Assembly: GCF_019599465.1 (NCBI RefSeq)
Contig: NZ_RKLR01000005.1
Span: 124,001 to 188,000, forward strand
DNA from: Haloarcula rubra
Lineage (GTDB): Archaea; Halobacteriota; Halobacteria; Halobacteriales; Haloarculaceae
Reading direction: 5' to 3'
Length of the DNA: 64,000 nucleotides
Below are positions 4,259 through 63,309 of this stretch, piece by piece. The position numbers and the translations under genes were made by a program. The notes below the pieces were generated by a model. The model was not told where the DNA came from. It saw nothing but the letters and a program-made list of their open reading frames with translations, and searched no databases. Position 1 is the first letter of the stretch; each line of letters opens with the position of its first letter.

Positions 4259-4990
4259 ATGACAGACCGAGAGCCCGAGGACCACGAGTTCTCCGAGGGA
4301 CAAGGGTTCGACGACCCCTACGAGGGCTTCGACCTCGAACCGCCGGAGTTCGAGGTGGACCCCGACAAGGTCGACCCCGTCGACTCCCGCGTCGTGACGG
4401 ACCTGCTCGACCGGCGGAACGTCTCGAACGACGCCGTCGACCCCGAGCAACTGCTCGACGTCGGCCTCGAGTACATGCACATCAACCGCCACGAGCAGGC
4501 CGCCGAGACGTTCGAGCGGGTCGCACAGTACACCGACGACGACTGCCTCGAACAGGAGGCCTGGACGAACAAGGGCGCGGCCCACGCCGAACTGGAAGAG
4601 TGGGACGCCGCCATCGGCGCCTACAAGGAGGCCCTGCGGGAGCTCGAGGACACCGAGCACGCCGCCACCGCCGAGACGAACCTCGCGTACGCGCTGTGGG
4701 AGTCCGGCCGCTCCGAGCAGGCGCTGGAACACGCCGAGCGCGCGGTCGAAATCGACCCCCGGTTCGCCGAAGCGTGGTACAACCGCGGCTTCTTCCTGCT
4801 CGAACGCGGCCTCGCCGAGGACGCCGTCGAGGCGTTCGACAACGCCATCCGACTCGGCTTCCGCAACGCCGACGTTCTGGAGGAGAAGGCCCGCGGGCTG
4901 GAGGAACTGGGCGAGTACGAGGAGGCCGAGGAACTGGCCGACGAGGTCAAGGAGATGCGCGAGAGCGCCGAAGAGCAGTTGCTGGAATGA
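4259..4990 (+). CDS. Tetratricopeptide repeat protein
   Basis: A 243-residue protein. An acidic N-terminal region (about 1-60) is followed by four or five TPR units, at about residues 62-230. Typical TPR positions are visible, such as A-x-x-x-x-x-G-x-x-x-x, W-Y-N-R-G-F and A-V-E-A-F-D-N-A-I. The C-terminus is a charged helix. TPRs form superhelical protein-binding scaffolds, so it probably assembles other proteins, but nothing shows which. A CCCTTAACC element (4227-4235) lies 24-32 nt before the start. Its stop overlaps the DUF424 start by 4 bp, so the two are co-translated. Confidence 0.9.
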   Translation: MTDREPEDHEFSEGQGFDDPYEGFDLEPPEFEVDPDKVDPVDSRVVTDLLDRRNVSNDAVDPEQLLDVGLEYMHINRHEQAAETFERVAQYTDDDCLEQEAWTNKGAAHAELEEWDAAIGAYKEALRELEDTEHAATAETNLAYALWESGRSEQALEHAERAVEIDPRFAEAWYNRGFFLLERGLAEDAVEAFDNAIRLGFRNADVLEEKARGLEELGEYEEAEELADEVKEMRESAEEQLLE

Positions 4991-9785: not shown

Positions 9786-10790
9786 ATGGCACTCGACGAC
9801 ATCGACCTCGACTACGTACGACTCGGCGAGACGGGCCTCTCGGTCAGCGAACTCGCCTTCGGGACGTGGCGGTTCGGCCGGGAGACGGCGGACGGCACGC
9901 TCGAAATCGGCGAGGACCGCGCCCACGACCTGCTCGACGCCTACGAGGCGGCCGGTGGGCGCTTCGTCGACACCGCCGACGTGTACGGTGGTGGCGACAG
10001 CGAGGAGTGGATCGGCGACTGGCTCTCGCAGCGTGACCGCGAGGAGTACGTCCTCGCCTCGAAGATATACTGGCCGACCCGCGAGGACGACCCGAACGGG
10101 CGCGGCCTCGGGCGCAAGCACATCCGGCGCAACATCGACCTGATGCTGGACCGCCTCGGGACGGAGTATCTGGACGTGCTGTACATCCACCGCTGGGACG
10201 AGGAGACGCCGGCCCGCGAACTGATGCGGACGCTCACCGGCCTCGTCGACGACGGCAAGGTGAACTACCTCGGGGCGTCGACGTTCGAGCCCAACGCGTG
10301 GCGGGTCGCACAGGCCAACGAACTGGCCGAGCGCGAGGGACTGGAGCCGTTCACCGTCTCCCAGCCCCGTTACAACCTCGTCGACCGCGAAGTGGAGGGG
10401 GACTACCTCGACATGTGTGACCACTACGGCCTCGGGGTCTGCCCGTGGAGTCCGCTGGGACAGGGCGTGCTGACCGGGAAGTACACACGCGACGACCGCG
10501 ACACCGACGCCTCGGCCGGCCGGAGCGACGACTGGAAGGAGTCCTACCTCACCGAGGAGAACTTCGACGTCGTCGACGAGGTGCGGGCCGTCGCCGACGA
10601 GGTGGGCGCCACCCCCGCGCAGGTGTCGCTCGCGTGGCTCATGCACCACGAGAACGTCGCGTCGCCGCTCGTCGGCGCTCGGACGGTCGACCAACTCGAA
10701 GAGAACCTCGCCGCGGCGGCCGTCGACCTCTCCGAGTCGCAGTTCGAGCGCCTCGCCGAGTCGAAGGGCGGTCCCTACGACGACATCTGA
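9786..10790 (+). CDS. Aldo/keto reductase
   Basis: A 334-residue NADPH-dependent oxidoreductase of the aldo/keto reductase superfamily (TIM barrel). The catalytic tetrad is visible: D62 and Y67 in F-V-D-T-A-D-V-Y, K93 in L-A-S-K-I-Y-W and H135 in L-Y-I-H-R-W. The cofactor end includes P-L-V-G-A-R-T-V-D-Q-L-E-E-N-L. It resembles the bacterial YajO/YghZ-type voltage-channel beta-subunit branch. The substrate is probably a sugar or small aldehyde but cannot be fixed. It stands as a single gene 70 bp before sufU. Confidence 0.92.
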   Translation: MALDDIDLDYVRLGETGLSVSELAFGTWRFGRETADGTLEIGEDRAHDLLDAYEAAGGRFVDTADVYGGGDSEEWIGDWLSQRDREEYVLASKIYWPTREDDPNGRGLGRKHIRRNIDLMLDRLGTEYLDVLYIHRWDEETPARELMRTLTGLVDDGKVNYLGASTFEPNAWRVAQANELAEREGLEPFTVSQPRYNLVDREVEGDYLDMCDHYGLGVCPWSPLGQGVLTGKYTRDDRDTDASAGRSDDWKESYLTEENFDVVDEVRAVADEVGATPAQVSLAWLMHHENVASPLVGARTVDQLEENLAAAAVDLSESQFERLAESKGGPYDDI

Positions 10791-10860
10791 GGAGGCCGCC
10801 GCGCCGCCGGAGGGAGCCTCGGAAGCCTTTTCCGGGCCAGTACCGTAACTGAATCCAACA

Positions 10861-11289
10861 ATGGGTATCGGCGGCTCAGATATGTACCGGCAGCAGATTC
10901 TCGACCACTACAAGAACCCTCGGAACACCGGCGAACTCGAGGACCCCACCTTCACCCACGTCGGCGAGAACCCGATGTGCGGCGACGAGATTCGCATGGA
11001 CGTCGTCCTCAGCGAGGACGAGGAGACCATCAAGCGCGTCGCCTTCCGCGGCGACGGCTGTGCCATCTCGCAGGCGTCGGCGTCGATGCTCACGGAGAAA
11101 CTCCACGGGATGTCCGTCGACGAACTGGAGGAGTTGGACCGCGACGACATCGTCGACATGCTCGGCGTCGACATCTCCCCGATGCGAATCAAGTGCGCCG
11201 TCCTCGCGGAGAAGGTCGCACAGGACGGCGCGGAGATATACTTCGGCGAGAAGGACCTCGACAAGACGACGACCGAAGACGACGACTGA
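10861..11289 (+). CDS. sufU: SufU/IscU-type Fe-S scaffold or sulfur acceptor
   Basis: A 142-residue U-type protein that accepts persulfide sulfur from SufS and helps build Fe-S clusters. The three conserved cysteines are C40 (M-C-G-D-E, with the conserved D42), C67 (G-D-G-C-A-I-S) and C112 (I-K-C-A-V-L-A), as in the SufU subgroup. Length is normal, plus a short acidic tail. It lies 3.7 kb downstream of sufS in the same orientation with its own likely promoter (AAGCCTTTT about 30 nt upstream). A separate NifU C-terminal-domain protein is at 53841. Confidence 0.94.
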   Translation: MGIGGSDMYRQQILDHYKNPRNTGELEDPTFTHVGENPMCGDEIRMDVVLSEDEETIKRVAFRGDGCAISQASASMLTEKLHGMSVDELEELDRDDIVDMLGVDISPMRIKCAVLAEKVAQDGAEIYFGEKDLDKTTTEDDD

Positions 11290-34968: not shown

Positions 34969-35946
34969 TCAGTCCAGCGCTACCGGGCCGCCCGCCGCCG
35001 CGCTCTCGTAGATGGCGTCGATTATCTCCATGATGGCGACGCTCTCGGTGCGGTCGACCCGGGGCGTCTCGCCGCTCGCGACGCAGTCGGCGAAGTGTTC
35101 GACCTCCAGCGTGTAGTGGTCGGTCGGGTCGAACCGCTCGGTCACCGTCCGGTCGCCGACTCCGTAGGTGAGTTCGGTCGCGGTCTCGGCACCGATGTCG
35201 AAGGTCGGTTCCGCCTTGAGCCACCCGTCCGTGGTCTCGACGCGGTAGTACTGCGTGAGCGGCGTCTCGAACCCGGACTGGACGCGGGCCGTCGCACCGC
35301 CGTCGTACTCCAGAATCCCAGCCATCTCTGTGTCGACGCCACAGTCCCGGCCGTCGTTGGTGACGCCGTACACCCGGTCGGGGTCGCCGAGGAACTGGCG
35401 CGCGGCGCTGATGGCGTAACAGCCCACGTCCATGACGCTCCCGCCCGCGAGGTCCGGGTCCAGTCGGATGTCCTCGGCGCCGTCGGGCATCCGGAAGGTG
35501 AACGTCGACGTGACGTTGCGGACCTCGCCGAGTTCGGTCTGGACTATCTCGAACGCTCGCTCGGTCAGCGGGTGGAAGCGGTACATGAACGCCTCCATCA
35601 GTGTCACGTCGCGGTCCGCACAGTAGTCGAACACCGCCGCCGTCTCCTCGGCGCTCGCCGTGAGCGGTTTCTCACAGAGGACGTGCAGACCGGCGTCGGC
35701 GGCCCGCCGAATCCACTCGGCGTGGAGGCCGTTGGGCAGGGGGATGTACACCGCGTCGATGTCGGCGTCGGCGAGCAACGCCTCGTACCCCTCGTAGGCG
35801 GCGGGGACGTCGAACTGGTCCGCGACCGCCTCGGCCCGAGTGCCGTCCCGGGAGGCGATAGCGCCGACCTCGTGGTCGCTCTTGCGGATACCCGGAATCA
35901 CCGAACCGGTCCCGATGTCTGCCGTGCTGAGGATGCCGAATCGCAT
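34969..35946 (-). CDS. Gfo/Idh/MocA family sugar oxidoreductase
   Basis: A 325-residue NAD(P)-dependent oxidoreductase. The N-terminal Rossmann fold has G-I-L-S-T-A-D-I-G, the signature E-K-P-L-T-A-S-A is at about 93-100, and a second domain (about 125-300) has G-G-S-V-M-D-V-G-C-Y-A. It probably acts on a sugar or polyol, since it sits at the edge of the pentose region downstream of an IclR regulator. The 17-bp palindrome at 36047-36063 lies about 100 bp before its start. A TATA-like CTTTATT is at 35970-35976 (minus). Confidence 0.88.
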   Translation of the reverse strand: MRFGILSTADIGTGSVIPGIRKSDHEVGAIASRDGTRAEAVADQFDVPAAYEGYEALLADADIDAVYIPLPNGLHAEWIRRAADAGLHVLCEKPLTASAEETAAVFDYCADRDVTLMEAFMYRFHPLTERAFEIVQTELGEVRNVTSTFTFRMPDGAEDIRLDPDLAGGSVMDVGCYAISAARQFLGDPDRVYGVTNDGRDCGVDTEMAGILEYDGGATARVQSGFETPLTQYYRVETTDGWLKAEPTFDIGAETATELTYGVGDRTVTERFDPTDHYTLEVEHFADCVASGETPRVDRTESVAIMEIIDAIYESAAAGGPVALD

Positions 35947-36046
35947 ACCGGATGACCGCGCGACGAGCGAATAAAGCTAGTGGTCTGTCGCGACGGCTGC
36001 CGACCGCTCGGACCCGTCGCCGACGTGTACTGCAGGTCGGACGGCC

Positions 36047-36063
36047 GTTCAGCCATACTGAAC
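36047..36063. promoter_or_regulatory. 17-bp palindrome GTTCAG-N5-CTGAAC
   Basis: GTTCAG CCATA CTGAAC, with six-base arms that match exactly and a 5-bp spacer. It lies upstream of the Gfo oxidoreductase and resembles 48460-48476. A degenerate copy is at 36211-36227 (GTTCAG TCATA GCGAAC). Candidate operator for the neighbouring IclR regulator. Confidence 0.6.
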
Positions 36064-36210: not shown

Positions 36211-36227
36211 GTTCAGTCATAGCGAAC
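36211..36227. promoter_or_regulatory. Degenerate GTTCAG-N5-(C)GAAC site
   Basis: GTTCAG TCATA GCGAAC shares the left arm and spacer style of the perfect site at 36047, but two bases of the right arm differ. It could be a weaker second binding site. Confidence 0.4.
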
Positions 36228-36282: not shown

Positions 36283-37047
36283 TTACGAGTACGTGAAGTT
36301 GAGTTCGATGACGTTCGCGACTTCGAGGACTCGCTGGGGGAGTTCCTCTCTGAACCGTTCGCCGCGGAAGCGGTTGGTCGGCCCCGCGACGCTGATGGCG
36401 CCGATGATGTCGTCGCTGTTGTCGAGCACCGGCGCGGCGACACAGCGGAGGCCGTTGAGTCGCTCCTCGTCGTCGAACGCGACGCCGCGCTCCCGGATAG
36501 CGTCGAGCGTCTCGTCCAGTTCCGCGCGAGTACCGATGGACTGTGGGGTGTTCTCCGCCAGTCCGTGCCGGTCGACGATTTCGTCGACGCGCTCCTCGGG
36601 GAGGTACGCGAGGATGGCCTTGCCCAGCGCCGTGGTGTGTAGCGGCACGCGCGTGCCGACGTGTGCCTTCACCCGGACCGCCTGTTCGCCGTAGGCCCGG
36701 TAGAGGTACGACCCGCGGCCGTGTTCCTCGACGAGGACGTTCGCGAGTTCGCCTGTCTCGTCAGCGAGTCGGTCCACCTCCGGTTTCGCTATCTGAAACA
36801 GTTTCCGCTCGTGCCGCGAGTACGCGCCCAACTCCAGAAACCGCAGTCCGACCCGGTACTCGTTGTCGTCCTTGACGATGTACTCCTCCTGTTCGAGCGT
36901 GCTGAGATAGTTGTGGACCGTACTCTTCGGGAGGTCCAGATAGCGCGCCAGTTCCGTCACGCGGGCACCCCCGAGTTCTTTCAATCCGTTCAGAATCTCG
37001 AACGTCGTGCCGACTGATTTGACCGGGTTTTGGGCTGTACTCGCCAT
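36283..37047 (-). CDS. IclR family transcriptional regulator (XacR-like candidate)
   Basis: A 254-residue IclR-type regulator. The N-terminal winged helix (residues 10-70) shows V-T-E-L-A-R-Y-L-D-L-P-K-S-T-V-H-N-Y-L-S-T-L. The effector domain (80-250) carries H-T-T-A-L-G-K-A-I-L-A, G-L-R-C-V-A-A-P-V and G-A-I-S-V-A-G. In Haloferax volcanii an IclR protein, XacR, controls xac pentose genes, so this is a reasonable counterpart by location between xylose dehydrogenase and other sugar genes. A TGTTTAG element is at 37071-37077 (minus). Confidence 0.88.
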   Translation of the reverse strand: MASTAQNPVKSVGTTFEILNGLKELGGARVTELARYLDLPKSTVHNYLSTLEQEEYIVKDDNEYRVGLRFLELGAYSRHERKLFQIAKPEVDRLADETGELANVLVEEHGRGSYLYRAYGEQAVRVKAHVGTRVPLHTTALGKAILAYLPEERVDEIVDRHGLAENTPQSIGTRAELDETLDAIRERGVAFDDEERLNGLRCVAAPVLDNSDDIIGAISVAGPTNRFRGERFREELPQRVLEVANVIELNFTYS

Positions 37048-37127: not shown

Positions 37128-38198
37128 TTACAACTCGACGACGTCGCCGCTCTCGGCGGCCTCGTGGATGGCACGGACGATACGCATGTCCTGCAGGCCG
37201 TGGCGGCCGTCGGCGACTATCTCCCCGTCGGTGAGCACGCGGTCCGAGAAGAAGTCGAACTCCTCGCGCATCTCGCGCTGGGAGTCGAACGCCTCGTGTG
37301 AGACGGTGGCCGTCATGTCGCCCCGAGACAGGTGCATCGTACACTCGCCGTGGAACGCCGGCCGGAGGTCTATCTGGCCCGCCGTGCCCGTAATCTTGAG
37401 TTGCGTGTCCTCGTGGGCACGCTGGCTGTCGGTCGTGACCATCCGGACGCCGTCTTCCAGCGTGAGCAGTGCTCCGGACCGCTCGTCCGGGACCGCTTGG
37501 AACGCCTCGTGGTGGGAACTCATCTGTGACTGGACGGTGACCGGGTCCCGGTCCAGGATGAACCGCGTCGTGTTCAGCGAGTAGATGCCGAGGTCCATCA
37601 CCGACGTCCCGTAGCCCGAGAGGTCCGGGTCCAGTCGCCACTGGTCGTGGTCGGGGATCATCTCCAGCAACGGCTGGCTGTTGTTGCCGTAGACCGACAC
37701 CGGGTCGCCGACGAACCCGTCTTCGACCAACTCCTTCGCCCGCCGGACCGCGGGGTCGGTCTGCATCCGGTAGGCTATCATCAGCGGGATGTCGGTGCTC
37801 TCGGCCACGTCGACCATCTGTTCGGCCCGTTCGACCGTCGACTCCATCGGCTTCTCACAGAGGACGGCCTTGCCGTGGTCGGCCGCGCTCTCGACGTACG
37901 CGAGGTGGTACGCGTTCGGCGTGCCGACGTAGACGGCGTCGTAGGCGTCCGTGGCGGCGCCGTCGTGGAACTCGTCGTAACTGATGCCGTGGGCGACGTC
38001 GTGGTCGTCCGCCAGTCGCTCGGCCTTCTCGGTCGAACTGCTCACGAACGTCGTCACCTCGCCGAGGTCGGAGTTCTCGATGGCCGGTAGTGCCACGTCG
38101 ACGGTCCACCACCCGAGGCCGAGGAGCGCGTATCGGACGGTGCCGTCCGTGGTCGTCTGCCAGTCGCGGTCGTCGTAACCGTCGAGCCAATCTTTCAT
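37128..38198 (-). CDS. xacA: D-xylose 1-dehydrogenase (Gfo6/XacA type)
   Basis: A 356-residue Gfo/Idh/MocA dehydrogenase resembling the haloarchaeal NADP-dependent D-xylose (and L-arabinose) dehydrogenase. It opens with D-G-Y-D-D-R-D-W-Q, then the nucleotide motif A-L-L-G-L-G-W-W, and has E-K-P-M near residue 105. The first step of oxidative pentose breakdown gives xylono-lactone. Its TATA-like CTTTTTA (minus, 38225-38231) is 27-33 nt before the ATG, so probably leaderless. IclR is downstream and the Zn-dehydrogenase upstream, both in the same orientation. Confidence 0.86.
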   Translation of the reverse strand: MKDWLDGYDDRDWQTTTDGTVRYALLGLGWWTVDVALPAIENSDLGEVTTFVSSSTEKAERLADDHDVAHGISYDEFHDGAATDAYDAVYVGTPNAYHLAYVESAADHGKAVLCEKPMESTVERAEQMVDVAESTDIPLMIAYRMQTDPAVRRAKELVEDGFVGDPVSVYGNNSQPLLEMIPDHDQWRLDPDLSGYGTSVMDLGIYSLNTTRFILDRDPVTVQSQMSSHHEAFQAVPDERSGALLTLEDGVRMVTTDSQRAHEDTQLKITGTAGQIDLRPAFHGECTMHLSRGDMTATVSHEAFDSQREMREEFDFFSDRVLTDGEIVADGRHGLQDMRIVRAIHEAAESGDVVEL

Positions 38199-39474: not shown

Positions 39475-40248
39475 ATGAGTGCGTACGACCACACGCCAGT
39501 GACAGTCGCGGGCAAGCGAGCCGTCGTCGTCGGCGGCACGAGCGGTATCGGGCAGGCCATCGCCGAGGGGTTCGCCGCGGAAGGGGCCGACGTCGTCGCC
39601 ACCAGCCGCCGCGAGAGCGCCGTCGAGGAGACGGCAGACATCATCGAGGAGTACGGCGTCGACACCGCCCGCGTGACGTGTGACGTCACCGAGATGGCGA
39701 CGCTCGAACGGGTCCGCGAGACGGCCGTCGAGGAACTGGGCGGCGTCGACGTCGTCGTCGCCTCACAGGGCGCCATCTCCCGCGAGACGGTCCGGGACAT
39801 CGGCGACGAGGACTGGGACTTCGTGACCGACGTGGCCTTAGACGGGGTCCGCCGGGTCACGCAGGCGATGGTGCCCGCGATGGACGACGGCGGCGCTATC
39901 GTCAACATCTCCTCGCTAGCCGCCCGCCTCGCGATGGCGGACCTCCCGGCCTACGCGGCGGCGAAGGGCGGCGTCGAGGCGTTCACTCGCGCGTCGGCGA
40001 AGGAACTCGCGCCGGACGTCCGGGTCAACGCCATCGCCCCCGGGTTCGTCATCACGCCGCAGAACGCCGAGACGTACGCGGAGGGGACCGAGAAGCGGGC
40101 GAAGATCGACGAACGAGCGCCGCTCGGCCGGGTCGCCGACCGCGAGGAGATGGTCGGCGCGGCCGTCTATCTGGCGAGCGATGCCGCCTCGTACGTCACG
40201 GGCGAAGTCCTCACCGTCGACGGCGGGTTCGCCGATAGCGCGCTCTGA
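39475..40248 (+). CDS. Short-chain dehydrogenase in the pentose cluster
   Basis: A 257-residue classical SDR. The cofactor site is V-G-G-T-S-G-I-G (residues 19-26), and the active site has N-I-S-S-L and Y-A-A-A-K-G-G-V-E-A-F. It is inserted on the opposite strand between the transporter operon and the sugar dehydrogenases, so a sugar or sugar-acid substrate is likely but unproven. A TCAAATA element (39446-39452) lies 23-29 nt before the ATG, so it has its own promoter and probably responds to the same sugar. Confidence 0.9.
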   Translation: MSAYDHTPVTVAGKRAVVVGGTSGIGQAIAEGFAAEGADVVATSRRESAVEETADIIEEYGVDTARVTCDVTEMATLERVRETAVEELGGVDVVVASQGAISRETVRDIGDEDWDFVTDVALDGVRRVTQAMVPAMDDGGAIVNISSLAARLAMADLPAYAAAKGGVEAFTRASAKELAPDVRVNAIAPGFVITPQNAETYAEGTEKRAKIDERAPLGRVADREEMVGAAVYLASDAASYVTGEVLTVDGGFADSAL

Positions 40249-40284: not shown

Positions 40285-41433
40285 CTACAGGCGAAGCGCC
40301 TGCGGGTCGAGTTCCAGTTGCCGGGCGTGGAGCGCCTCGCCGGTGGCCGTATCGAAGACGTGAATCGTCTCCTCGGGGAGGTGGACGGTCACCGACTCGT
40401 TCTCCCCGACCTCTCGCATCCCCTCGGTGATGGCGACGAGGTCCTCGGTGCCCGTCGTCTCGCCGGGGAACTCCAGGTGGACGACGTTCTCGTTCCCCAT
40501 CGGTTCGACGACGGTGGCCGTCATCTCGAACTCGTGGGCCGGGTCGTCGCCGGCCTCGTCGCGTATCGCCACGTCCTCCGGTCGGATGCCGACGATGACG
40601 TCCTCGGCGTCCTCGACGGCGTCGGCGACGGTCTCGGAGAAGGGGTACTCGATGCGGTCGGTGACGAACGACGACCCCTCGCGCCGCCCGGAGAGGAAGT
40701 TCATCGACGGTTCACCGATGAACTCGGCGACGAACAGGTTGGTCGGTTCGTGGTACAGTTCCAGCGGCGGGCCGACCTGCTGGAGGCGCCCGTCGTTCAT
40801 CACGGCGATGCGGTCGGACATCGTCATCGCCTCCGTCTGGTCGTGCGTGACGTACACCGTCGTCACGTCGAGTTGGTGCTGGAGTTGCTGGAGTTCGGTC
40901 CGCATCTCCGCCCGCAGTTTGGCGTCCAGATTCGACAGCGGTTCGTCCATCAGGAACACCTCCGGGTCCCGGACGATGGCCCGCCCCAGCGCCACGCGCT
41001 GTTGCTGGCCGCCGGAGAGTTGGCCGGGCTTGCGGTCCAGCAGGTCCGAGATACCCATCATCGACGCGACTTCGGTCACGCGCTCGTCGATGTCGGTCTG
41101 TGAGAGGTCGGTCGACTCCTCCAGCCCGAACGACATGTTCCGGCGGGCGGAGAGGTGGGGGTACAGCGCGTAGGACTGGAACACCATCGCGATGTCCCGG
41201 TCCTGCGTGCGCACGTCGTTCAACACGTCGTCGCCGAGTCGAATCTCGCCGTCGGTGATGGTCTCCAGTCCGGCTATCATCCGGAGCGTGGTCGACTTCC
41301 CACACCCGGAGGGGCCGACCAGCACGAGGAACTCGCCGTCCCGAATCTCGACGGAGACGTCGTCGACGGCGACGATTTCGTCCTCGCCGTCCTCGAACAC
41401 CTTCGTGACCGCGTCGAGTGTTAAGTCGGCCAT
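40285..41433 (-). CDS. xacK: Pentose ABC transporter ATPase (second, XacK)
   Basis: A 382-residue CUT1-type ATPase. Walker A is G-P-S-G-C-G-K-S-T-T, Q-loop F-Q-S-Y-A-L-Y-P-H, signature L-S-G-G-Q-Q-Q-R, Walker B F-L-M-D-E-P-L-S-N-L-D. The C-terminal 140 residues form TOBE-like regulatory domains. It is the last gene of the G-H-I-J-K operon, and its start overlaps the xacJ stop by one base. Such systems in haloarchaea take up xylose and arabinose and use two ATPases. A 124-bp stretch is identical to xacJ. Confidence 0.9.
   Translation of the reverse strand: MADLTLDAVTKVFEDGEDEIVAVDDVSVEIRDGEFLVLVGPSGCGKSTTLRMIAGLETITDGEIRLGDDVLNDVRTQDRDIAMVFQSYALYPHLSARRNMSFGLEESTDLSQTDIDERVTEVASMMGISDLLDRKPGQLSGGQQQRVALGRAIVRDPEVFLMDEPLSNLDAKLRAEMRTELQQLQHQLDVTTVYVTHDQTEAMTMSDRIAVMNDGRLQQVGPPLELYHEPTNLFVAEFIGEPSMNFLSGRREGSSFVTDRIEYPFSETVADAVEDAEDVIVGIRPEDVAIRDEAGDDPAHEFEMTATVVEPMGNENVVHLEFPGETTGTEDLVAITEGMREVGENESVTVHLPEETIHVFDTATGEALHARQLELDPQALRL
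40875..40998. repeat. 124-bp exact repeat shared by xacK and xacJ (copy 1)
   Basis: This stretch inside xacK is identical base for base to 42035-42158 inside xacJ. It encodes the Walker B and signature-to-D-loop region. Flanking DNA on both sides is less alike, which suggests recent gene conversion. Confidence 0.85.
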
Positions 41434-42587
41434 TATACGTTCGTCACCTCCGCTTCCGGCCCGATGCGGCGGTTGTGCAAGGCGTCGCCGCTCTCCCCGT
41501 CGAAGACGTGGACGTGGCTCGGGTCGATGGTGACGACGACTTCCGAGCCCTGCTCGAAGATGTCGGTGCCGCCGGTGAGCGCGTGCAGGAGGTCGTCTTC
41601 GGCCGTGTCGTCCGGGTGGTTCAGGTGGAGGACGTTCTGGTCGCCGTGCGGTTCGATGACCGAGACGTGCATCAGGAACTCGTGGGCGCCGAGGTCGGAC
41701 TCGTCGACGCCGTCGGCCGTCGAGACGGCGATGTCCTCCGGTCGGACGCCGAGGACGACGTCGTCGGCACCGTCGACGGCGTCCCGGATGGTGGCGTCGA
41801 ACGGGTACTCGACGTACGTGCCGACGAACCGGCCGCCCTCGTTGCGCCCCTCGACGAAGTTCATCATCGGTTCGCCGATGAACCCCGCGACGAAGCGGTT
41901 CTCGGGCGCGTGGTACAGTTCCAGCGGGGGGCCGACCTGCTGGAGGTGCCCGTCGTCCATGACGGCGACGCGATCGGACATCGTCATCGCCTCCGTCTGG
42001 TTGTGCGTGACGTACACCGTCGTCACGTCGAAGCGGTGCTGGAGTTGCTGGAGTTCGGTCCGCATCTCCGCCCGCAGTTTGGCGTCCAGATTCGACAGCG
42101 GTTCGTCCATCAGGAACACCTCCGGGTCCCGGACGATGGCCCGCCCCAGCGCCACGCGTTGCTGCTGGCCGCCCGATAGCTCGTCGGGCTTGCGGTCCAG
42201 CAGTTCGCTGATGCCCAGCGTCTCGGCTATCTCCTCGACGCGGGCCTCGCGCTCCGCTTTCGTGTACCCCTCCTCCTCTTCGAGGCCGAAGCGCATGTTC
42301 GCGCGGACGGTCATGTGGGGGTACAGCGCGTAGTCCTGGAACACCATCGCGATGTCCCGGTTCTGCGGGACGCGGTAGTTCATGTGGTCGCCGGCGATGT
42401 AGATGTCGCCGGCCGTCGGCGTCTCTAGCCCCGCGAGACAGCGCAGCGTCGTCGACTTCCCACAGCCCGAGGGACCGACCAGCACGAGGAACTCGCTGTC
42501 GGCGATGTCCAGCGAGAGGTCGTCGACTGCCGTCGTCTCTCCGAACTCCTTCGTCAGGTTCTCGATGACGATTTCGCCCATCGTCAT
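41433..42587 (-). CDS. xacJ: Pentose ABC transporter ATPase (first, XacJ)
   Basis: A 384-residue ABC ATPase, paralogue of the next gene, with Walker A G-P-S-G-C-G-K-S-T-T, signature L-S-G-G-Q-Q-Q-R and Walker B F-L-M-D-E-P-L-S-N-L-D. Residues past about 245 are the regulatory C-terminal domain typical of MalK/UgpC-like ATPases. The start at 42587 is chosen because it overlaps the xacI stop (ATGA), but the second ATG at 42581 is possible. It presumably forms a heterodimer with XacK to power pentose import. Confidence 0.9.
   Translation of the reverse strand: MTMGEIVIENLTKEFGETTAVDDLSLDIADSEFLVLVGPSGCGKSTTLRCLAGLETPTAGDIYIAGDHMNYRVPQNRDIAMVFQDYALYPHMTVRANMRFGLEEEEGYTKAEREARVEEIAETLGISELLDRKPDELSGGQQQRVALGRAIVRDPEVFLMDEPLSNLDAKLRAEMRTELQQLQHRFDVTTVYVTHNQTEAMTMSDRVAVMDDGHLQQVGPPLELYHAPENRFVAGFIGEPMMNFVEGRNEGGRFVGTYVEYPFDATIRDAVDGADDVVLGVRPEDIAVSTADGVDESDLGAHEFLMHVSVIEPHGDQNVLHLNHPDDTAEDDLLHALTGGTDIFEQGSEVVVTIDPSHVHVFDGESGDALHNRRIGPEAEVTNV
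42035..42158. repeat. 124-bp exact repeat shared by xacJ and xacK (copy 2)
   Basis: Second copy of the identical block, inside xacJ. The homologous part of the ABC ATPase at 59253-60434 is clearly different, so strong constraint alone does not explain the identity. Confidence 0.85.
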
Positions 42588-43516
42588 CCACCTCCCGTCC
42601 GCAGGCCCTTCGCAAACTGCTCCGCGAAGGCGACGTAGATGATGAGGGTCGGAATCGCGGCGAGGAACGCCGCCGACATGCGGATTCCGAAGTCGATACC
42701 GGACGTCGAGGCGCCGACGGCCGGGAGGATGAGCGTCACCACGGCTTCGGGCGTGTCGGAGCCAGTGATCAGCGTGAACGCGAAGAGGAACTCGTTGTAT
42801 ATCTGGGTGAACTGGTAGATGAACACGACGCCGAACATCGGCTTCGAGATGGGGAGCACGATGCGCCGGTATATCTTCGAGATGGACGCCCCGTCTATCT
42901 TCGCGGCCTCGACGAGCGAACTCGGGAGGCTCTGGTAGTACGAGCGAAAGAGGATGGTACAGATGGGAATCCCGTAGGCGATGTGGGTGATCATGAGGGG
43001 GACGAGGTTCGAGTGGAAGTCCTGCACCACCGGGAGCGTCTCGAACGTCGGCGCCAGCATCGACGCGAGCGGGAAGATGTTGTTCCAGAACCGCGCTAGC
43101 GGCACCAGCACCGCCTGATACGGCAGGAAGATACCGATGAGGAACAGTATCAGGAACAGCATCTGGCCGCGCCAGCGGACCATCGTGAGGCCGTAGGCGG
43201 CCATGCTCCCGAACAGGACGCTCCCGATGGTGGCCGGAATCGCCATGAACAGGGAGTTGAAGAAGGCGCCCGAGAGCTGTTCGAGCGCGAACTGGAGGTT
43301 GCCCCACGTGAACCCCTCGCCGGTCGGCGGCGCCAGCGGAATCGTGCGGGCGACGGCCTCGTTGGTCTTCAGCGCCGTCATGATGCCGGTCTCCAGCGGT
43401 GCGAGGAAGAAACCGATGAACAGGATGACCAGCACGTACTGGCCGATGCGGGCGAGGTTGAACTCCTCGACGAACGATGCGACGTCGATGCCGGAGTCGG
43501 ACGTTGACTGTGACAT
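42584..43516 (-). CDS. xacI: Pentose ABC transporter permease (XacI)
   Basis: A 310-residue inner-membrane permease of the MalG/CUT1 type with six helices. The EAA loop that docks the ATPase is E-A-A-K-I-D-G-A-S-I-S-K-I (about residues 205-217). Its stop overlaps the xacJ start by 4 bp (ATGA) and its start (43516) is 1 bp from the xacH stop, a tight translational operon. The frame is open to 43567 but the ATG at 43516 fits the operon spacing best. Probably carries xylose or arabinose with XacH. Confidence 0.92.
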   Translation of the reverse strand: MSQSTSDSGIDVASFVEEFNLARIGQYVLVILFIGFFLAPLETGIMTALKTNEAVARTIPLAPPTGEGFTWGNLQFALEQLSGAFFNSLFMAIPATIGSVLFGSMAAYGLTMVRWRGQMLFLILFLIGIFLPYQAVLVPLARFWNNIFPLASMLAPTFETLPVVQDFHSNLVPLMITHIAYGIPICTILFRSYYQSLPSSLVEAAKIDGASISKIYRRIVLPISKPMFGVVFIYQFTQIYNEFLFAFTLITGSDTPEAVVTLILPAVGASTSGIDFGIRMSAAFLAAIPTLIIYVAFAEQFAKGLRTGGG

Positions 43517-43517
43517 G

Positions 43518-44474
43518 TTAGAGGCTCCCCTGTCTGTACTGGTAGTAGAGGTACGGCGCGATGACACCCAGCGCGAGGACCATCAGGTACGTCGCGATGG
43601 TCGCCGCGTAGGCCCACTTGCCGAACTTGAACGCCTCCCGGACCATCAGGGTCGCAAGGATGTCCGTCCCGTTGGGCGGCCGGTACCGGCCGGTCAGCGC
43701 GTACAGGAAGGTGAACGCCTTCAGCGCGAACACCATCAGGACGACGGCGGCGCTGACCGACGACTCCTTCAGTTGCGGGATGATGATGCGGAGGTAGGTC
43801 TTTACCGTGCTCGCGCCGTCGACGCGGGCGGCCTCGAACTGGTCGTCGGGGAGCGACCGGAGGCCGGCCAGATAGACGACCATCGTGTAGCCGCTGAACT
43901 GCCAGATGAGCGCGAAGATGATGGACCCGAGCGCTATCGAGGGGTCCCCTATCCAGTTGACGGGTTCGAACCCGAACGCCGTCACGATGATGTTCAGCAG
44001 GCCGTTGTTGTTGTTGAACATCCAGAGCCACATCTGGGCCGTGACGACGAACGAGAGGCTCATCGGCAGCAAGTAGATGGTCTGTACCTTGTCGTCGTAC
44101 CGAATCCCCTGGTCAATGAGCACCGCGAGGAACAGGCCGAGAACGAGGCAAACCGTCGTGAACGTGACGAGCAGTACCAGATTGTTCTGGGTGGCCTGCA
44201 GGAACGCGTTGCTCCCGAGTACCTGCGTGTACATCTCGAGGTCGAGATTGCCCAGACTGTAGTCCGGCGGCGTCAGTCCCCGCGCGTCGGTCAGCGATAT
44301 CGCGACGTTGAACCCCATGCCGCCGTAGACGGCGGCGCCCATGATGAGGAACGGAATCCCCCAGAAGGGCGAGGACCGCACGAAGTCACTGTTGAGGAAG
44401 TACCGCAACTTCGTCTCCCAGTCGACCTCCTCGGTCGGGGTTGTGGTTGCCTCTGCCGTTTCGTGGGTGTCCAT
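43518..44474 (-). CDS. xacH: Pentose ABC transporter permease (XacH)
   Basis: A 318-residue permease of the MalF/CUT1 type. A polar N-terminus of about 40 residues precedes six membrane helices. The EAA segment is E-A-A-R-V-D-G-A-S-T-V-K-T. It forms the channel with XacI and is bound by the solute-binding lipoprotein XacG upstream. Its start at 44474 follows the xacG stop by 52 bp. Confidence 0.92.
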   Translation of the reverse strand: MDTHETAEATTTPTEEVDWETKLRYFLNSDFVRSSPFWGIPFLIMGAAVYGGMGFNVAISLTDARGLTPPDYSLGNLDLEMYTQVLGSNAFLQATQNNLVLLVTFTTVCLVLGLFLAVLIDQGIRYDDKVQTIYLLPMSLSFVVTAQMWLWMFNNNNGLLNIIVTAFGFEPVNWIGDPSIALGSIIFALIWQFSGYTMVVYLAGLRSLPDDQFEAARVDGASTVKTYLRIIIPQLKESSVSAAVVLMVFALKAFTFLYALTGRYRPPNGTDILATLMVREAFKFGKWAYAATIATYLMVLALGVIAPYLYYQYRQGSL

Positions 44475-44526
44475 AGGTAGTGTGATTTCGTTCCGGTATA
44501 ATAAAATGTGTAGTTCGTCGACCCCG

Positions 44527-45903
44527 TTACTGGGACACGGCGTCGAGCAGTCCGTCGGCCGCCGCCTGCACGTCGTAGGGACCCATCATGTTCTCGCTCA
44601 TCGCCGTCTTGCAGGCGCCCATCTGCTCTGGCGGGACGGCGAGGCCGTGTGCGATGGTGGGCGGGTACCGCTCGGAACTGGTCAGGTCCTCGTAGGTCAG
44701 GCCGATGAAGTCGCCGAGTTCGCCCGGGTCGATGTCGGTCCGGAGCGGGACGGAGCCTTTCAGGTTGTTGAACGCGATCTGGGCCTGTTTCGTCCCGACG
44801 AACTTCTGCCACGCGATGGTCTCGTCCTCGCTCGGGTTGTTCGCCGGCGCGACGATGGCGTCGATGTGGTAGCCGTAGGTGCCCTCGGTGCCGGGGAACG
44901 GTATCCAGTCCCAGTGCTCCTTGTAGTTGAACGAGTCGTCGACGCGGAACTGACCTGCGAGCCAGTTGCCCTGATGCATACAGGCGACTTCGCCGTTTAT
45001 CATCTTGCCACCGACGTCGGTGAAACTCACCGAGGACGCGTCGTTGGTGATGTAGTTCTGCTGAATCTCCCGAACGACTTTCAGCGATTCGACGAGGGCC
45101 TGCCGGTCACCGTTGCCCTCGATGAAGTCCATGTAGGCGTCGACGCCGGCCTGACTCTGGAGGACCTGTGCCCACAGCTGGAGGACGGTCCACGGTGCGA
45201 CCATCGCCTGTCCCATGGGTGTGATGTCCGTCTCCGTCTTGATGGCGTCGAGCGCGCTCATCAGCGAGTCGATGTCGTCGAGGCCCGACGGGTCGACGCC
45301 CGCCTCCTCGAAGGCCGCGATGTTGTAGAACAGGTTGTTCATCCGGTGAGAGCCCAGCGGGACGGAGGACATCTTGCCGTTGAACGTACAGAGTTCGACG
45401 GCGCGGTCCTGCATCACGTCCTTGTACCCTTCGGCGTCCCAGACGGACGATTCGAGGTTCATCAGGTTCCCGCGGTAGCGTTCGAGATTGTTCCCCGGCC
45501 AGTTCGCGAAGGAACTCATCGGGTTGTTGTTGACCATCCGGCGCAGAATCGTCGCGTTGAGGTTGACGTTCGCGCTCGCCCCGACGGCCTGGAACTGTGT
45601 CTCCATGTCGGGGTATTCGCCCTTGAACTCCTCTATGAGGGCCGTAATCGCGGCTTCACCGTCACCACCGGCCCACCCGTGGAGGACTTCGAGCGTGTCG
45701 TCCCACTGCCCGCCACCCCCCGAACCGTCGCTGCCGTCGCTGCTGCCGTCACTCCCGCCGTCGCTGCCGCCGTCGCCGCCGTCACTACCGCCGTCGCCAC
45801 CGTCACCGGAACACCCGGCGATGCCGAGTGCGGCACCTGCGCTCAGCGCAGCGAGGTATCTCCGCCTGTCCATTGCCGAATCTGGTTTGTCACTGTCAAC
45901 CAT
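44527..45903 (-). CDS. xacG: Pentose-binding lipoprotein (XacG)
   Basis: A 458-residue CUT1 extracytoplasmic sugar-binding protein. The N-terminus has the twin-arginine motif M-D-R-R-R-Y-L-A, a hydrophobic stretch and a lipobox G-I-A-G-C (cysteine about residue 31), so it is Tat-exported and lipid-anchored. A glycine/serine/aspartate linker (about 32-60) keeps the domain free. The rest is a family 1 binding protein fold. It is the first gene of the transporter operon, with a TATA-like element at 45931-45938. Confidence 0.92.
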   Translation of the reverse strand: MVDSDKPDSAMDRRRYLAALSAGAALGIAGCSGDGGDGGSDGGDGGSDGGSDGSSDGSDGSGGGGQWDDTLEVLHGWAGGDGEAAITALIEEFKGEYPDMETQFQAVGASANVNLNATILRRMVNNNPMSSFANWPGNNLERYRGNLMNLESSVWDAEGYKDVMQDRAVELCTFNGKMSSVPLGSHRMNNLFYNIAAFEEAGVDPSGLDDIDSLMSALDAIKTETDITPMGQAMVAPWTVLQLWAQVLQSQAGVDAYMDFIEGNGDRQALVESLKVVREIQQNYITNDASSVSFTDVGGKMINGEVACMHQGNWLAGQFRVDDSFNYKEHWDWIPFPGTEGTYGYHIDAIVAPANNPSEDETIAWQKFVGTKQAQIAFNNLKGSVPLRTDIDPGELGDFIGLTYEDLTSSERYPPTIAHGLAVPPEQMGACKTAMSENMMGPYDVQAAADGLLDAVSQ

Positions 45904-46052: not shown

Positions 46053-47288
46053 TCACGCCGCGTCGAACAGTTCCTGTCCCTCCGCCAGATGTGCCTCGAC
46101 GGCGTCGAGGTCCAGCGTGAGGCCCAGCCCGGGCTCCTCGGGAACGTCCATGTAGCCGTCGACGATGAGGTCGTCTTCCTCGACGAGGTCCTCCCACCAT
46201 CCGAGTTCGTAGGAGTGGTACTCGACGGCGAGCGCGTTCGGGATGGCGGCGCCGACGTGGGCCGACGCCATCGTCCCGATAGGCGAGGAGACGTTGTGCA
46301 TCGCCACGGGGAGGTAGAACATGTCCGCCAGCGTCGCAATCTTCGCCGTCTCGCGCATCCCGCCGACCTTCGGGCAGTCCGGCGCGACGATGTCGACGCC
46401 CTCCTCGGTGATGAGGCGGCGCTGGCCGTGCGTGCGGTAGACGTTCTCGCCGGCGGCGATGGGCGTGCCCGTCGACTGGGTGACCTCGCGCTGGACGTCG
46501 TGGTTCTCGGGGGGGACGGGGTCTTCGAGCCACCACACGTCGTACTGTTCGAGTTCGCGCGCGAGGCGTTTCGCGCTCCCGCTGGCGAACGCCCAGTGAC
46601 AGTCGAAGGCGGCGTCCGCTCGGTCGCCGACGCGTTCGGTGACCTGCCGGACGATTTCGGCCTTGTGTTCTATCTCCGGCCGGCGGAGGTGGCGGTTCGC
46701 ACGGTCCTTCTCGTGGCCCGAGGGGACGTCGAGGTCGAACTTCAGAGCGTCGTACCCGAGTTCCTCGACGACGCGTTCGGCTTCGTCGGCACAGGCCTCC
46801 GGGTCGGCCTCGTCTTCGGTGTGACAGTCACAGTACGTCCGCACCGAGTCTCGGTACTTGCCGCCGAGCAGTTGGTAGGCGGGGACGTCGAGAATCTTGC
46901 CGGCGACGTCGTGCAAGGCGAGTTCGATGCCGGAGATGGCGGCGATGTCCTTGCCGGCGATGGAGCCCTCGCCGGACATCTTCTGGACCATGTGCTCGTA
47001 CAGGCGGTCGATGTCCAGCGGGTTCTCGCCGACGACAAAGGGGGTCAACCGCTCGATTATCTCCGGCAGGGCGCCGCCCCAGTAGGCTTCGCCGTTGCCG
47101 ACGGGCCCGGCGTCCGTGTAGACGCGGACGAGCGTCCACGGGTAGTTGCCGTCGACGATGACGGTCTGAACGTCGGTAATCTCGACGTCGCGGCGCTCGC
47201 CGCGGTCCGCCGTGAGGCCCATCGTCTCCGAGGAGAGGTCCCGCATCGTGTACTCTGCGTTGGGGTCACGCAAGTTTCCGTAGTGCAT
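46053..47288 (-). CDS. xacD: Xylonate/arabinonate dehydratase (XacD)
   Basis: A 411-residue mandelate racemase/muconate-lactonizing enolase-superfamily enzyme. The metal ligands are in A-F-D-C-H-W (Asp), W-W-L-E-D-P (Glu) and A-A-G-E-N-V-Y (Glu). The full-length pattern, with D-P-N-A-E-Y-T-M-R-D-L-S and D-L-D-V-P-S-G-H-E-K-D-R, resembles haloarchaeal XacD, which dehydrates xylonate or arabinonate to 2-keto-3-deoxy-pentonate. It is placed between XacE and the transporter. The start ATG at 47288 follows the family N-terminus. Confidence 0.9.
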   Translation of the reverse strand: MHYGNLRDPNAEYTMRDLSSETMGLTADRGERRDVEITDVQTVIVDGNYPWTLVRVYTDAGPVGNGEAYWGGALPEIIERLTPFVVGENPLDIDRLYEHMVQKMSGEGSIAGKDIAAISGIELALHDVAGKILDVPAYQLLGGKYRDSVRTYCDCHTEDEADPEACADEAERVVEELGYDALKFDLDVPSGHEKDRANRHLRRPEIEHKAEIVRQVTERVGDRADAAFDCHWAFASGSAKRLARELEQYDVWWLEDPVPPENHDVQREVTQSTGTPIAAGENVYRTHGQRRLITEEGVDIVAPDCPKVGGMRETAKIATLADMFYLPVAMHNVSSPIGTMASAHVGAAIPNALAVEYHSYELGWWEDLVEEDDLIVDGYMDVPEEPGLGLTLDLDAVEAHLAEGQELFDAA

Positions 47289-47419
47289 GCGACAGCGGTA
47301 GATACACACCCTCCGACAAAACACTTCCGGGCGTTCGGGCCGGAGCGCGGGCAGCGCGGCCGCTCGTGGCGTCACCGAGTGGAACGGCGGCCGGTCGTCT
47401 CGTCGGTGACGCGTGCTGG

Positions 47420-48283
47420 TCAGACGGTCGTCACGGGATTGCTCAGCGTCCCGATGCGTTCGACGTCGATGTCGACGCGGTCGTCCGCTCGGAGCGTGAA
47501 CCCCTCGTCGGGGACGAGCGACGTCCCGGTGAGGAGGACGGCGAGTTCGGGGACGGCGTTGTGCGTGGTGTAACAGTCGACGAGTTCCTCGCAGGTGCGG
47601 ACCATCTCGTCGGTGTTCGTCTCGCCGCTGTACACCCGTTCCCCGTCGCGGTGAATCGTCATCGAGATGGCCAGCGAGTGTGGGTCCTCGATGTCGGTGA
47701 CGACGCTGGGACCGATGGCACAGCAGCGGTCGTAAACCTTCGCCTGGGGGAGGTACAGCGGGTTCTGTCCCTCGATAGACCGACTGCTCACGTCGTTGCC
47801 GATGGTGTAACCCACCGTCTCGCCCTCGTAGAGGACGATACCGAGTTCGGGTTCGGGCACGTCCCACTCCGAGTCGCGTCGGATACCGACCGCCTCGCCG
47901 GGACCGACCGTCCGACTCGGCGTCGACTTGAAGAATATCTCCGGCCGCTCCGCGTCGTAGACGTCCAGATACATGTCGGGGGTGTCACTCTCCTCCCGAC
48001 GGGCCTCCTCGCTTATCTGGTAGGTGACGCCGGCGGCCCACACCTCGTCGGCGTGGACCGGTACGGTCCGGGTCCCGTCGAGGTCGTCCGGCGAGAGTTC
48101 GTTGTCGGCGGCGACGTGGCGCGCCGCGACGTCGTCGGGGGGCTGTTCGGCCACGTTCGCCGCCGCGAGGAGGTCCCGAAGCGACTGGAGGCGCGGCTTC
48201 GCGGCGGTGAGGTCGTACAGGCCCTCGCCCGTCGAAACGACGAGCCGACCGGTGTCTCCATCACTGAGCTGATAGTACCGCAT
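47420..48283 (-). CDS. xacE: 2-keto-3-deoxy-pentonate dehydratase (XacE, FAH family)
   Basis: A 287-residue fumarylacetoacetate-hydrolase-fold enzyme. The metal site pattern is E-P-E-L-G-I-V-L, with E-I-F-F-K-S and a G-Y-T-I-G-N-D-V-S-S-R-S loop, as in the archaeal 2-keto-3-deoxy-arabinonate dehydratases. It would give 2-oxoglutarate semialdehyde, the fourth pathway intermediate. A TATA-like TTTTTAATG (minus, 48305-48313) lies 22-30 nt before the ATG, so it is near-leaderless. Confidence 0.87.
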   Translation of the reverse strand: MRYYQLSDGDTGRLVVSTGEGLYDLTAAKPRLQSLRDLLAAANVAEQPPDDVAARHVAADNELSPDDLDGTRTVPVHADEVWAAGVTYQISEEARREESDTPDMYLDVYDAERPEIFFKSTPSRTVGPGEAVGIRRDSEWDVPEPELGIVLYEGETVGYTIGNDVSSRSIEGQNPLYLPQAKVYDRCCAIGPSVVTDIEDPHSLAISMTIHRDGERVYSGETNTDEMVRTCEELVDCYTTHNAVPELAVLLTGTSLVPDEGFTLRADDRVDIDVERIGTLSNPVTTV

Positions 48284-48304: not shown

Positions 48305-48313
48305 ATTAAAAAG
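48305..48313 (-). promoter_or_regulatory. TATA-like element for xacE
   Basis: CATTAAAAA on the + strand, TTTTTAATG on the minus, 22-30 nt before the ATG at 48283. It overlaps the 14-nt repeat at 48311-48324. Confidence 0.6.
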
Positions 48314-48459: not shown

Positions 48460-48476
48460 GTTCAGCATTACTGAAC
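48460..48476. promoter_or_regulatory. 17-bp palindrome GTTCAG-N5-CTGAAC (second copy)
   Basis: GTTCAG CATTA CTGAAC, perfect six-base arms and the same spacer length as the site at 36047. It lies about 175 bp upstream of xacE. A variant with the same five inner arm bases and a 7-bp spacer is at 48624-48640. Confidence 0.6.
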
Positions 48477-48623: not shown

Positions 48624-48640
48624 GTTCACTCTTTCTGAAC
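48624..48640. promoter_or_regulatory. GTTCA-N7-TGAAC inverted repeat
   Basis: GTTCA CTCTTTC TGAAC has the same total length, 17 bp, as the 5-bp-spacer sites but loses one arm base on each side. It may be a weaker relative. Confidence 0.4.
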
Positions 48641-61645: not shown

Positions 61646-62836
61646 CTACCACTCGGCGACGCTGCCGTCGTCGTGTCGCCACACGGGGTTGTGCCAGTCG
61701 ACCTCCTTCTCGGCCTGTTCGCGAACGTACGACTCGTTGATGTCGACGCCGAGGCCGGGGTCGTCCGGGACGCTGACGTAGCCGTCCTCGTAGTCGAACA
61801 CCGAGGGGTCGGCCAGATAGTCCAGTACGTCCGTCGTCTCGTTGTAGTGGATGTTCAGGCTCTGTTCTTGGATGAGCGCGTTCGGCGAGCAGGCGTCGAC
61901 CTGCACGCAGGACGCCAGCGCGAGGGGGCCCAGCGGGCAGTGTGGTGCCATCGCGACGTCGTAGGCCTCGGCCATCGACGCTATCTTCTTGACCTCGGTG
62001 ATGCCGCCGGCGTGGGAGAGGTCCGGTTGAATCAGGTCGACGGCGCCGTCCTCGAACACCTCCTTGTAGTCCCATCGGGAGAACATCCGCTCGCCCGTCG
62101 CGATGGGGATGGTCGTGTGGGCGGCGATGTCCGGCAGCGCCTCGTTGTGTTCGGGCAGGACCGGTTCCTCGACGAACATCGGTTCGTGCGGTTCCAGCGC
62201 CTTCGCCAGTCGCTTCGCCATCGGCTTGGTGACCCGGCCGTGGAAGTCGACGCCGATGTCCACCTCGTCGCCGACGGCCTCGCGCACCTCCGCCAACCGG
62301 GTGACCGCTGCCTCGACGGTGGCGGGGTCGTCGATGCGTTCTATCTCCGGCGTCGCGTTCATCTTCAGGGCCGTGAAGCCGGCGTCGACCTGTTCGCGGG
62401 CCTGTTCGGCCACGTCCGAGGGCCGGTCGCCGCCGATCCACTGGTAGACACGGATGCGGTCGCGGGCGGCGCCACCGAGCAACTGGTGGACCGACGCCCC
62501 GAGTTGCTTGCCCTTGATGTCCCAGAGCGCCTGGTCGATGCCCGCGATGGCGCTCATGAGGACCGGGCCGCCGCGGTAGAACCCGCCGCGGTACATCGTC
62601 TGCCAGTGGTCCTCGATGTTCTCGGGGTTCTCCCCGAGCAGGTAGGTGTCCACGAGCTCCTCGACGGCCGCTTCGACGGTGTGCGAGCGGCCCTCGACGA
62701 CGGGTTCCCCCCAGCCGACGGTGCCGTCGGCCGTCTCGAGACGGAGGAAGAGCCACCGGGGCGGGACCTCGAACAGTTCGTAGTCGACGATTCGGTTCGC
62801 GTCGCCGCCGTCCGTCCGTACGGTGGTGTCGGTCAT
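61646..62836 (-). CDS. dgoD: D-galactonate dehydratase
   Basis: A 396-residue enolase-superfamily enzyme that dehydrates galactonate to 2-keto-3-deoxygalactonate. Metal ligands are Asp in G-V-D-F-H-G, Glu in F-V-E-E-P-V and Glu in A-T-G-E-R-M. Catalytic landmarks are G-R-S-H-T-V-E-A, G-G-F-Y-R-G-G-P-V, W-I-G-G-D-R-P and M-A-P-H-C-P-L-G-P. The match is typical of DgoD. The frame is open from 62917; the ATG at 62836 fits M-T-D-T-T-V. A TATA-like element on the minus strand near 62966-62974 would give a leader of about 110 nt. Confidence 0.9.
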   Translation of the reverse strand: MTDTTVRTDGGDANRIVDYELFEVPPRWLFLRLETADGTVGWGEPVVEGRSHTVEAAVEELVDTYLLGENPENIEDHWQTMYRGGFYRGGPVLMSAIAGIDQALWDIKGKQLGASVHQLLGGAARDRIRVYQWIGGDRPSDVAEQAREQVDAGFTALKMNATPEIERIDDPATVEAAVTRLAEVREAVGDEVDIGVDFHGRVTKPMAKRLAKALEPHEPMFVEEPVLPEHNEALPDIAAHTTIPIATGERMFSRWDYKEVFEDGAVDLIQPDLSHAGGITEVKKIASMAEAYDVAMAPHCPLGPLALASCVQVDACSPNALIQEQSLNIHYNETTDVLDYLADPSVFDYEDGYVSVPDDPGLGVDINESYVREQAEKEVDWHNPVWRHDDGSVAEW

Positions 62837-63011
62837 CGGTGAAGGAACTGGAACGTCGCGGTAGTCGTCACCGAGTCGTCCCGCTGTCGCCGGGTTACTG
62901 ACTGTCCGGAACCACACGAAGCGAGTGATGGTGTCGGTGTCATCGTCCGTCGGTTCGTGGATGCCGTATTTAATCGTTGTGTCGACACGAGCGTCCGCAG
63001 AGCGGCGTGCC

Positions 63012-63028
63012 GTTCACGGTATGCGAAC
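63012..63028. promoter_or_regulatory. GTTCAC-N5-GCGAAC palindrome-like site
   Basis: GTTCAC GGTAT GCGAAC differs from a perfect palindrome at one arm position. Upstream of dgoD by about 175 bp. Confidence 0.5.
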
Positions 63029-63104
63029 GCGAGGATGGTTCACACGGAACCGGTGCGCCACGGCACCTCGGTCGCCGTCGAGACGGCCGCCCCTCGAACC
63101 TCGC

Positions 63105-63121
63105 GTTCACGATGTGGAAAC
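63105..63121. promoter_or_regulatory. GTTCAC-N5-GGAAAC degenerate site
   Basis: GTTCAC GATGT GGAAAC, read on the minus strand as GTTTCC ACATC GTGAAC. The same arms recur at 60526-60542. Confidence 0.4.
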
Positions 63122-63292
63122 GGATGGCGGACGTGAACGTGACACGGACTCGTCTGTCGATACCTCGTCGAGACGCGGGACAGGGGAGAAAACGACCGCA
63201 CCGGGCGTGAGGGCATAGACGACGAGCCTCCGAGCGAGTACTAACAGAGGTACCCGTGTTATCGCGCTCCCGCGGGGAACAGGAGCACCAGC

Positions 63293-63309
63293 GTTCACGA
63301 AGTGTGAAC
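63293..63309. promoter_or_regulatory. 17-bp palindrome GTTCAC-N5-GTGAAC
   Basis: GTTCAC GAAGT GTGAAC, perfect six-base arms with a 5-bp spacer. Same architecture as 36047 and 48460 except that the innermost arm base is C/G instead of G/C. Confidence 0.6.

Follow-up and report, generated by a model that had tools for sequence, protein, structure and literature searches.

The window analysed here, the whole 64,000-nucleotide stretch of Haloarcula rubra DNA, carries a gene cluster assigned to the uptake and oxidation of pentoses. The cluster reads from the minus strand, except for one short-chain dehydrogenase gene on the opposite strand, and it includes a zinc alcohol dehydrogenase in addition to the following genes:

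34969-35946, minus strand: GfoA, a Gfo/Idh/MocA oxidoreductase, proposed target
36283-37044, minus strand: IclR-family regulator of 254 aa, candidate binder of palindrome A (PF09339, 48.4 bits, cut-off 22; PF01614, 138.5 bits, cut-off 24)
37128-38198, minus strand: D-xylose 1-dehydrogenase Gfo6 family (NCBIfam NF041392, 601.8 bits, cut-off 350)
39475-40248, plus strand: short-chain dehydrogenase
40285-45903, minus strand: CUT1-type sugar ABC transporter (ATPase, two permeases, binding protein)
46053-47300, minus strand: sugar-acid dehydratase of the MR/MLE (enolase) superfamily
47420-48283, minus strand: FAA-hydrolase-family protein (PF01557), proposed target

The regulator combines the N-terminal helix-turn-helix and C-terminal effector domains of the IclR family, and its closest named relative, in H. 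pellucida, is 96% identical. The FAA-family protein, which matched nothing in a search of viral contigs, is probably a 2-keto-3-deoxypentonate dehydratase, a function suggested by the pathway. Because the Gfo6 label also falls on a gene of a Haloferax galactose cluster, the pentose assignment rests on the FAA enzyme, the dehydratase and Gfo6 taken together, and further on the presence of the operator beside 2,5-dioxovalerate dehydrogenase in other Haloarcula. The label alone was rejected as proof of xylose, the Haloferax 'Gfo6' plasmid locus being a galactose-type cluster. A second pentose-type cluster of the genome (L197, G000:C31:160001-180000) combines 2,5-dioxovalerate dehydrogenase with an FAA paralog (63%), an MR/MLE dehydratase, a Gfo6-like gene and an IclR of 54% identity; it has A-type sites at 4790 and 4906, and element B at 4846.

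The control elements described below, palindrome A and element B, lie between iclR and GfoA, upstream of the latter (36-kb sites), ahead of the gene that opens the cluster (48-kb sites), and in the next sugar cluster:

35969-35976, minus strand: TATA-like CTTTATTC, 23-30 nt before the GfoA start codon, conserved in loci L024 and L025
36047-36063, unstranded: GTTCAGCCATACTGAAC, proximal A at the GfoA promoter, located 101-117 bp ahead of that gene's start codon and conserved in both L024 and L025
36071-36090, unstranded: element B, TAACAGACGTACATAGGTTA (minus strand), 7 bp upstream of proximal A, conserved in the alignment, one of the 17 genomic B places
36211-36227, unstranded: distal A, GTTCAGTCATAGCGAAC, 164 bp from proximal A
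48305-48312, minus strand: TATA-like TTTTTAAT, assigned by position, 22-29 nt before the FAA-hydrolase start codon
48460-48476, unstranded: GTTCAGCATTACTGAAC, proximal A at the FAA-hydrolase (operon) promoter, located 177-193 bp ahead of the start codon and conserved in L133, L151 and L152
48485-48504, unstranded: element B, TAACGGAAGTACTATTGTTA (minus strand), 8 bp upstream of proximal A
48624-48640, unstranded: distal A, GTTCACTCTTTCTGAAC, 164 bp from proximal A
63242-63261, unstranded: additional copy of B, separated by 31 bp from an A-type palindrome and lying upstream of the gene for an MR/MLE dehydratase (61673-62842, minus strand)
63293-63309, unstranded: A-type palindrome, GTTCACGAAGTGTGAAC, next sugar cluster

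The TATA-like boxes stand 22-30 nt before the start codons, and the palindromes are therefore well upstream of the core promoter; the sites precede the boxes by 70-150 bp. The transcript of the FAA-hydrolase gene is likely leaderless, to judge from this layout.

A preliminary description of this DNA had reported two perfect palindromes with identical arms, GTTCAG-CCATA-CTGAAC and GTTCAG-CATTA-CTGAAC, and one degenerate copy, and all three were found exactly where it had placed them (36047-36063, 48460-48476 and 36211-36227). It had captured about half of the module, overlooking the copy at 48624-48640, the A-type palindrome at 63293-63309, element B, and the fixed spacing whereby exactly 164 bp separate 36047 from 36211 and, equally, 48460 from 48624. 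Its proposal that matching arm pairs are unlikely to arise by chance is borne out by the genome-wide frequency check that it had called for: the exact pattern GTTCA-N7-TGAAC occurs at eight places in 4.67 Mb (backward control 0), four of them within the 64-kb window (binomial P about 2e-6), while exact GTTCAG-N5-CTGAAC occurs at 36047 and 48460 only. The remaining exact places include C22:643337, within a predicted coding frame, and a C31 site located between convergent genes. When three mismatches were allowed, the window count was ordinary (19 seen vs 20 expected), and the signal therefore resides only in the exact arms; a relaxed GTTCR-N7-YGAAC scan returned 114 places with mostly CG-rich arms and was uninformative. 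The consensus of palindrome A is GTTC(A/C)GTA(A/T)TACTGAAC.

Alignment of orthologous promoters brought out a second element, B (TAACN4GTACN4GTTA), which lies beyond proximal A as seen from the gene, at a distance of 7-8 bp, and both window promoters show the same order of distal A, about 119 bp, B, 7-8 bp and proximal A. In a search of 392 genomes, the B-N7-9-A composite was present in 18 of 26 Haloarcula genomes and in one of the 366 other genomes of the order (backward control 0). The gap between B and A measures 8 bp in 30 of the 32 unique composites among the fetched loci, giving a composite of about 45 bp. As expected of an operator with its regulon, the motif is conserved across species and recurs upstream of functionally related genes: the composite is found upstream of the FAA gene, in oxidative pentose-pathway loci including that of the GfoA gene, and, repeatedly, between 2,5-dioxovalerate dehydrogenase and the Gfo6 pentose dehydrogenase, there in opposite orientation. 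Other composites lie near a PEP carboxykinase gene and an ABC-ATPase-looking gene.

In the next sugar cluster of the window (63012-63309), A-type palindromes at 63012 and 63293 accompany the B element at 63242, with a B-A distance of 31 bp and not 8.

In 18 of the 32 composites, proximal A has a second A-like partner, with no more than one mismatch in the arms, at a distance of 158-171 bp, a count to be read with the test having been devised after the spacing was noticed and with many loci being orthologous copies that represent only about six promoter groups. The distance bin from -170 to -161 holds 15 matches vs 0-2 in nearly all other bins. Counterparts of the 36211 site are GTTCACTATGACCGAAC at -165 in L024 and ATTCACTATAGCTGAAC at 163 bp in L025, and those of the 48624 site lie at -164 in L133 and L151, -162 in L150 and -159 in L152. 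Homology between promoters was rejected as the cause of the equal spacing, since the two spacer sequences of the window promoters match each other no better than shuffled sequence (identity 0.75 vs 0.72) and yet measure 119 and 120 bp; it is thus the distance that is kept, rather than the sequence. Two sites at a conserved spacing are the arrangement expected of a looping pair, and their shared motif suggests that one protein would occupy both. At least nine core-Haloarcula FAA promoters contain B, 8 bp and A with no clear distal A, so that the A pair is common and not universal.

The link between palindrome A and the neighbouring regulator was assessed by searching for TTCA-N7-TGAA from -350 to +1150 bp of the iclR start, with orthologs defined by at least 75% identity (n=11) and haloarchaeal paralogs by less than 58% (n=39). 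Sites were found near nine of the 11 orthologs vs one of the 39 paralogs (Fisher P about 2e-7, ignoring kinship), and backward-read controls gave 0 and 1, respectively. In Haladaptatus and Halomarina, A sites flank iclR although the neighbouring genes differ. The recognition segment PKST(V/I)HNYLSTL is kept throughout the clade of the window IclR, including Haladaptatus and Halomarina, and is changed in paralogs; Halosimplex orthologs have the same segment, yet no strict A was found near them. The suggestion that the palindromes are candidate operators of the IclR protein is hence supported by their tie, across genomes, to IclR orthologs and pentose genes, whereas the adjacency initially described applies to the 36-kb pair and not to the 48-kb pair, which lies about 11.4 kb from iclR.

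Core Haloarcula (L028, L030, L031, L033 and L088, about 10773-11127) also have A sites, together with a B-like element that is strongly conserved, in the gap between iclR and a convergent frame for a small membrane protein, a place with no obvious promoter; such positions, like those of the C22 and C31 sites of H. rubra, weigh against the operator reading. The TATA-like box of iclR itself adjoins an A-like sequence, for example GTCCCAGATGTTTGAAC, in L028-L033 and L088 (about 9950-9966), which suggests autoregulation in these loci; the equivalent place in the window holds a different inverted repeat, CTCGATAAAACGAG.

Element B also occurs by itself. The H. rubra genome contains 17 B places (backward control 0), 12 of which have no A-type palindrome within 60 bp, and no partner palindrome was found at a fixed offset from every one of the 17. 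Besides the B at C33:160071, those at C3:50692 and 50926, C5:12612 and C1:15607 lie within 500 bp of other IclR genes; further places are near a sugar-binding protein gene and near a gene whose beginning resembles phosphoglucomutase, beside a fructose-bisphosphatase-like gene, the latter two identities being judged by eye from sequence. The four Haloarcula sampled have 7-17 B places per genome, and genomes elsewhere 0-9, with small numbers in several other families. Most B places lack an A-type palindrome at a fixed offset. On the simplest reading, B is probably the site of a separate, broader regulator. TrmB of Haloarcula hispanica, which regulates according to carbon status and recognises a partly palindromic site, represents a candidate class for this factor. 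TrmB itself is not supported in that role when judged by the presence of B, as opposed to the TrmB motif itself: B is absent here from the promoter of the TrmB target fbp and from that of a pHH400 sugar porter (probably HAH_5129).

The region about 0.9 kb upstream of a gene resembling PEP synthase (PPDK_N domain) in L249 (G000:C1:36000-39600) carries B at 1713 and GTTCGTGAGTTGCGAAC at 1678.

Sugar clusters with an IclR operator are familiar; what appears to be new is the combination of the B-8-A composite and a distal A some 164 bp away, although part of it may already be described for Haloferax. The nearest parallel is XacR (HVO_B0040), the activator of xylose and arabinose catabolism in Haloferax volcanii, with which the window shares an IclR regulator in a pentose cluster with a Gfo6 dehydrogenase, an MR/MLE dehydratase and an FAA-family enzyme. 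Regulation of xacEA requires the distal -250 to -750 region, and the segment 250-750 bp upstream of xacE is needed for repression without xylose as well as for activity above that of the short promoter with xylose (PMC10448506), a far-upstream control that resembles the long-range arrangement of the window module. The label "XacR-like", given at the outset, can be retained for the analogy and the way of working, and no further: the shared operator motif that would mark XacR orthology was not seen in xac-type FAA promoters of other haloarchaea, exact A being absent from the FAA upstream regions of 24 loci outside Haloarcula, a set that may not include Haloferax. An equally strong case for being the XacR ortholog can be made for the IclR at C31:176686 (54% identical), whose gene is close to the 2,5-dioxovalerate dehydrogenase/FAA cluster. 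Repression of its own gene has been reported for XacR (PMC6995148), whereas the window iclR promoter contains no exact A. A negative semi-palindrome over the WW motif is reported in the xacR promoter, and the original work on XacR is cited as reporting promoter motifs (PMC6085418).

The characterised haloarchaeal sugar IclRs XacR, GacR, RhcR and MscR are activators (PMC11519228), and this role is proposed for the window IclR, which resembles GacR, RhcR and MscR in family and in association with sugar clusters. The probable GacR, the IclR of the Haloferax alexandrinus gal cluster (L162), is only 35% identical to it. Among bacterial members of the family, PcaU and PcaR bind operators with GTTC...GAAC-type cores; A shares with these a short palindrome with GTTC/GAAC ends, but the PcaU/PcaR sites are shorter. 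We know of no B-A-A arrangement in bacterial IclR-family operators.

Very probably, then, the A palindromes are docking sites of a sugar-sensing regulator that controls pentose breakdown. We hold with considerable confidence that A would be the operator of the IclR protein encoded at 36283-37044, by which the uptake and oxidation of pentoses would be controlled from a position ahead of the TATA box, with the A pair flanking B, and with bridging and a separate B factor as likely components. By analogy, the regulator most likely acts as an upstream activator, because its sites lie upstream of the TATA-like boxes and the known haloarchaeal sugar IclRs are activators. An IclR tetramer may bridge both A sites of a promoter, bending or looping the intervening DNA; B, beside proximal A, would be occupied by another regulator, probably a sugar or carbon-status factor of wider scope. 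The complete version of this scheme, in which the tetramer bridges two operators about 164 bp apart and is gated by a haloarchaeal carbon-status factor at B, a motif that is also present in other haloarchaeal families, is put forward tentatively.

A competing explanation, rather unlikely but the most serious of those weighed, is that B and A form one operator for a single IclR tetramer, with one dimer per palindrome and no regulator of its own for B. TtgV offers a precedent, with one dimer on each of two adjacent palindromes, and the near-invariant 8-bp spacing, the compact composite of about 45 bp and the B sites near several IclR genes all accord with it. The sequences of A and B are, however, unrelated, B stands alone at 12 of its 17 places, and in Haladaptatus and Halomarina A occurs beside iclR orthologs without a strict B. 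That A is bound instead by another sugar regulator, either an IclR paralog such as that at C31:176686 or a TrmB-family protein, strikes us as improbable. The genome encodes at least 10 IclR genes, another A-type site precedes a 38%-identical IclR, and pentose genes of H. hispanica are induced in a trmB deletion without glucose (PMC10817205); nevertheless, A follows the orthologs of the window IclR across genera, in some cases right next to the gene, and hardly ever occurs near paralogs, and the TrmB effect was judged indirect by its authors (PMC10817205).

Two explanations dispense with a DNA-binding regulator at A. The perfect arms could pair in RNA as hairpins or terminators, but the fold of the composite is unremarkable (z = -1.25), the B-A spacing is fixed, and the sites lie far upstream of the TATA-like boxes of leaderless-looking genes, making this very improbable. 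Chance palindromes in a 67% GC genome would agree with the ordinary window count at three mismatches, but against zero counts in the exact-pattern and composite controls, and against the conservation of position and spacing across species, they are hardly credible.

With A as the operator of the window IclR, the locus supplies an exact candidate operator and regulon for a haloarchaeal sugar regulator, and motif B would mark where a separate, broad regulator binds. If the 164-bp pairing means looping, it would constitute a clear archaeal case of long-range operator cooperation, of which we know no established archaeal example. The module is also a candidate answer to the response of H. hispanica pentose genes to the loss of TrmB 'via as-yet-unknown regulators' (PMC10817205).

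In L001 (G000:C5), the sequence GTTCATGATACGTGAAC lies about 84 bp upstream of the 38%-identical IclR gene, suggesting that IclR paralogs may share the GTTCA/TGAAC core and differ in the inner bases.
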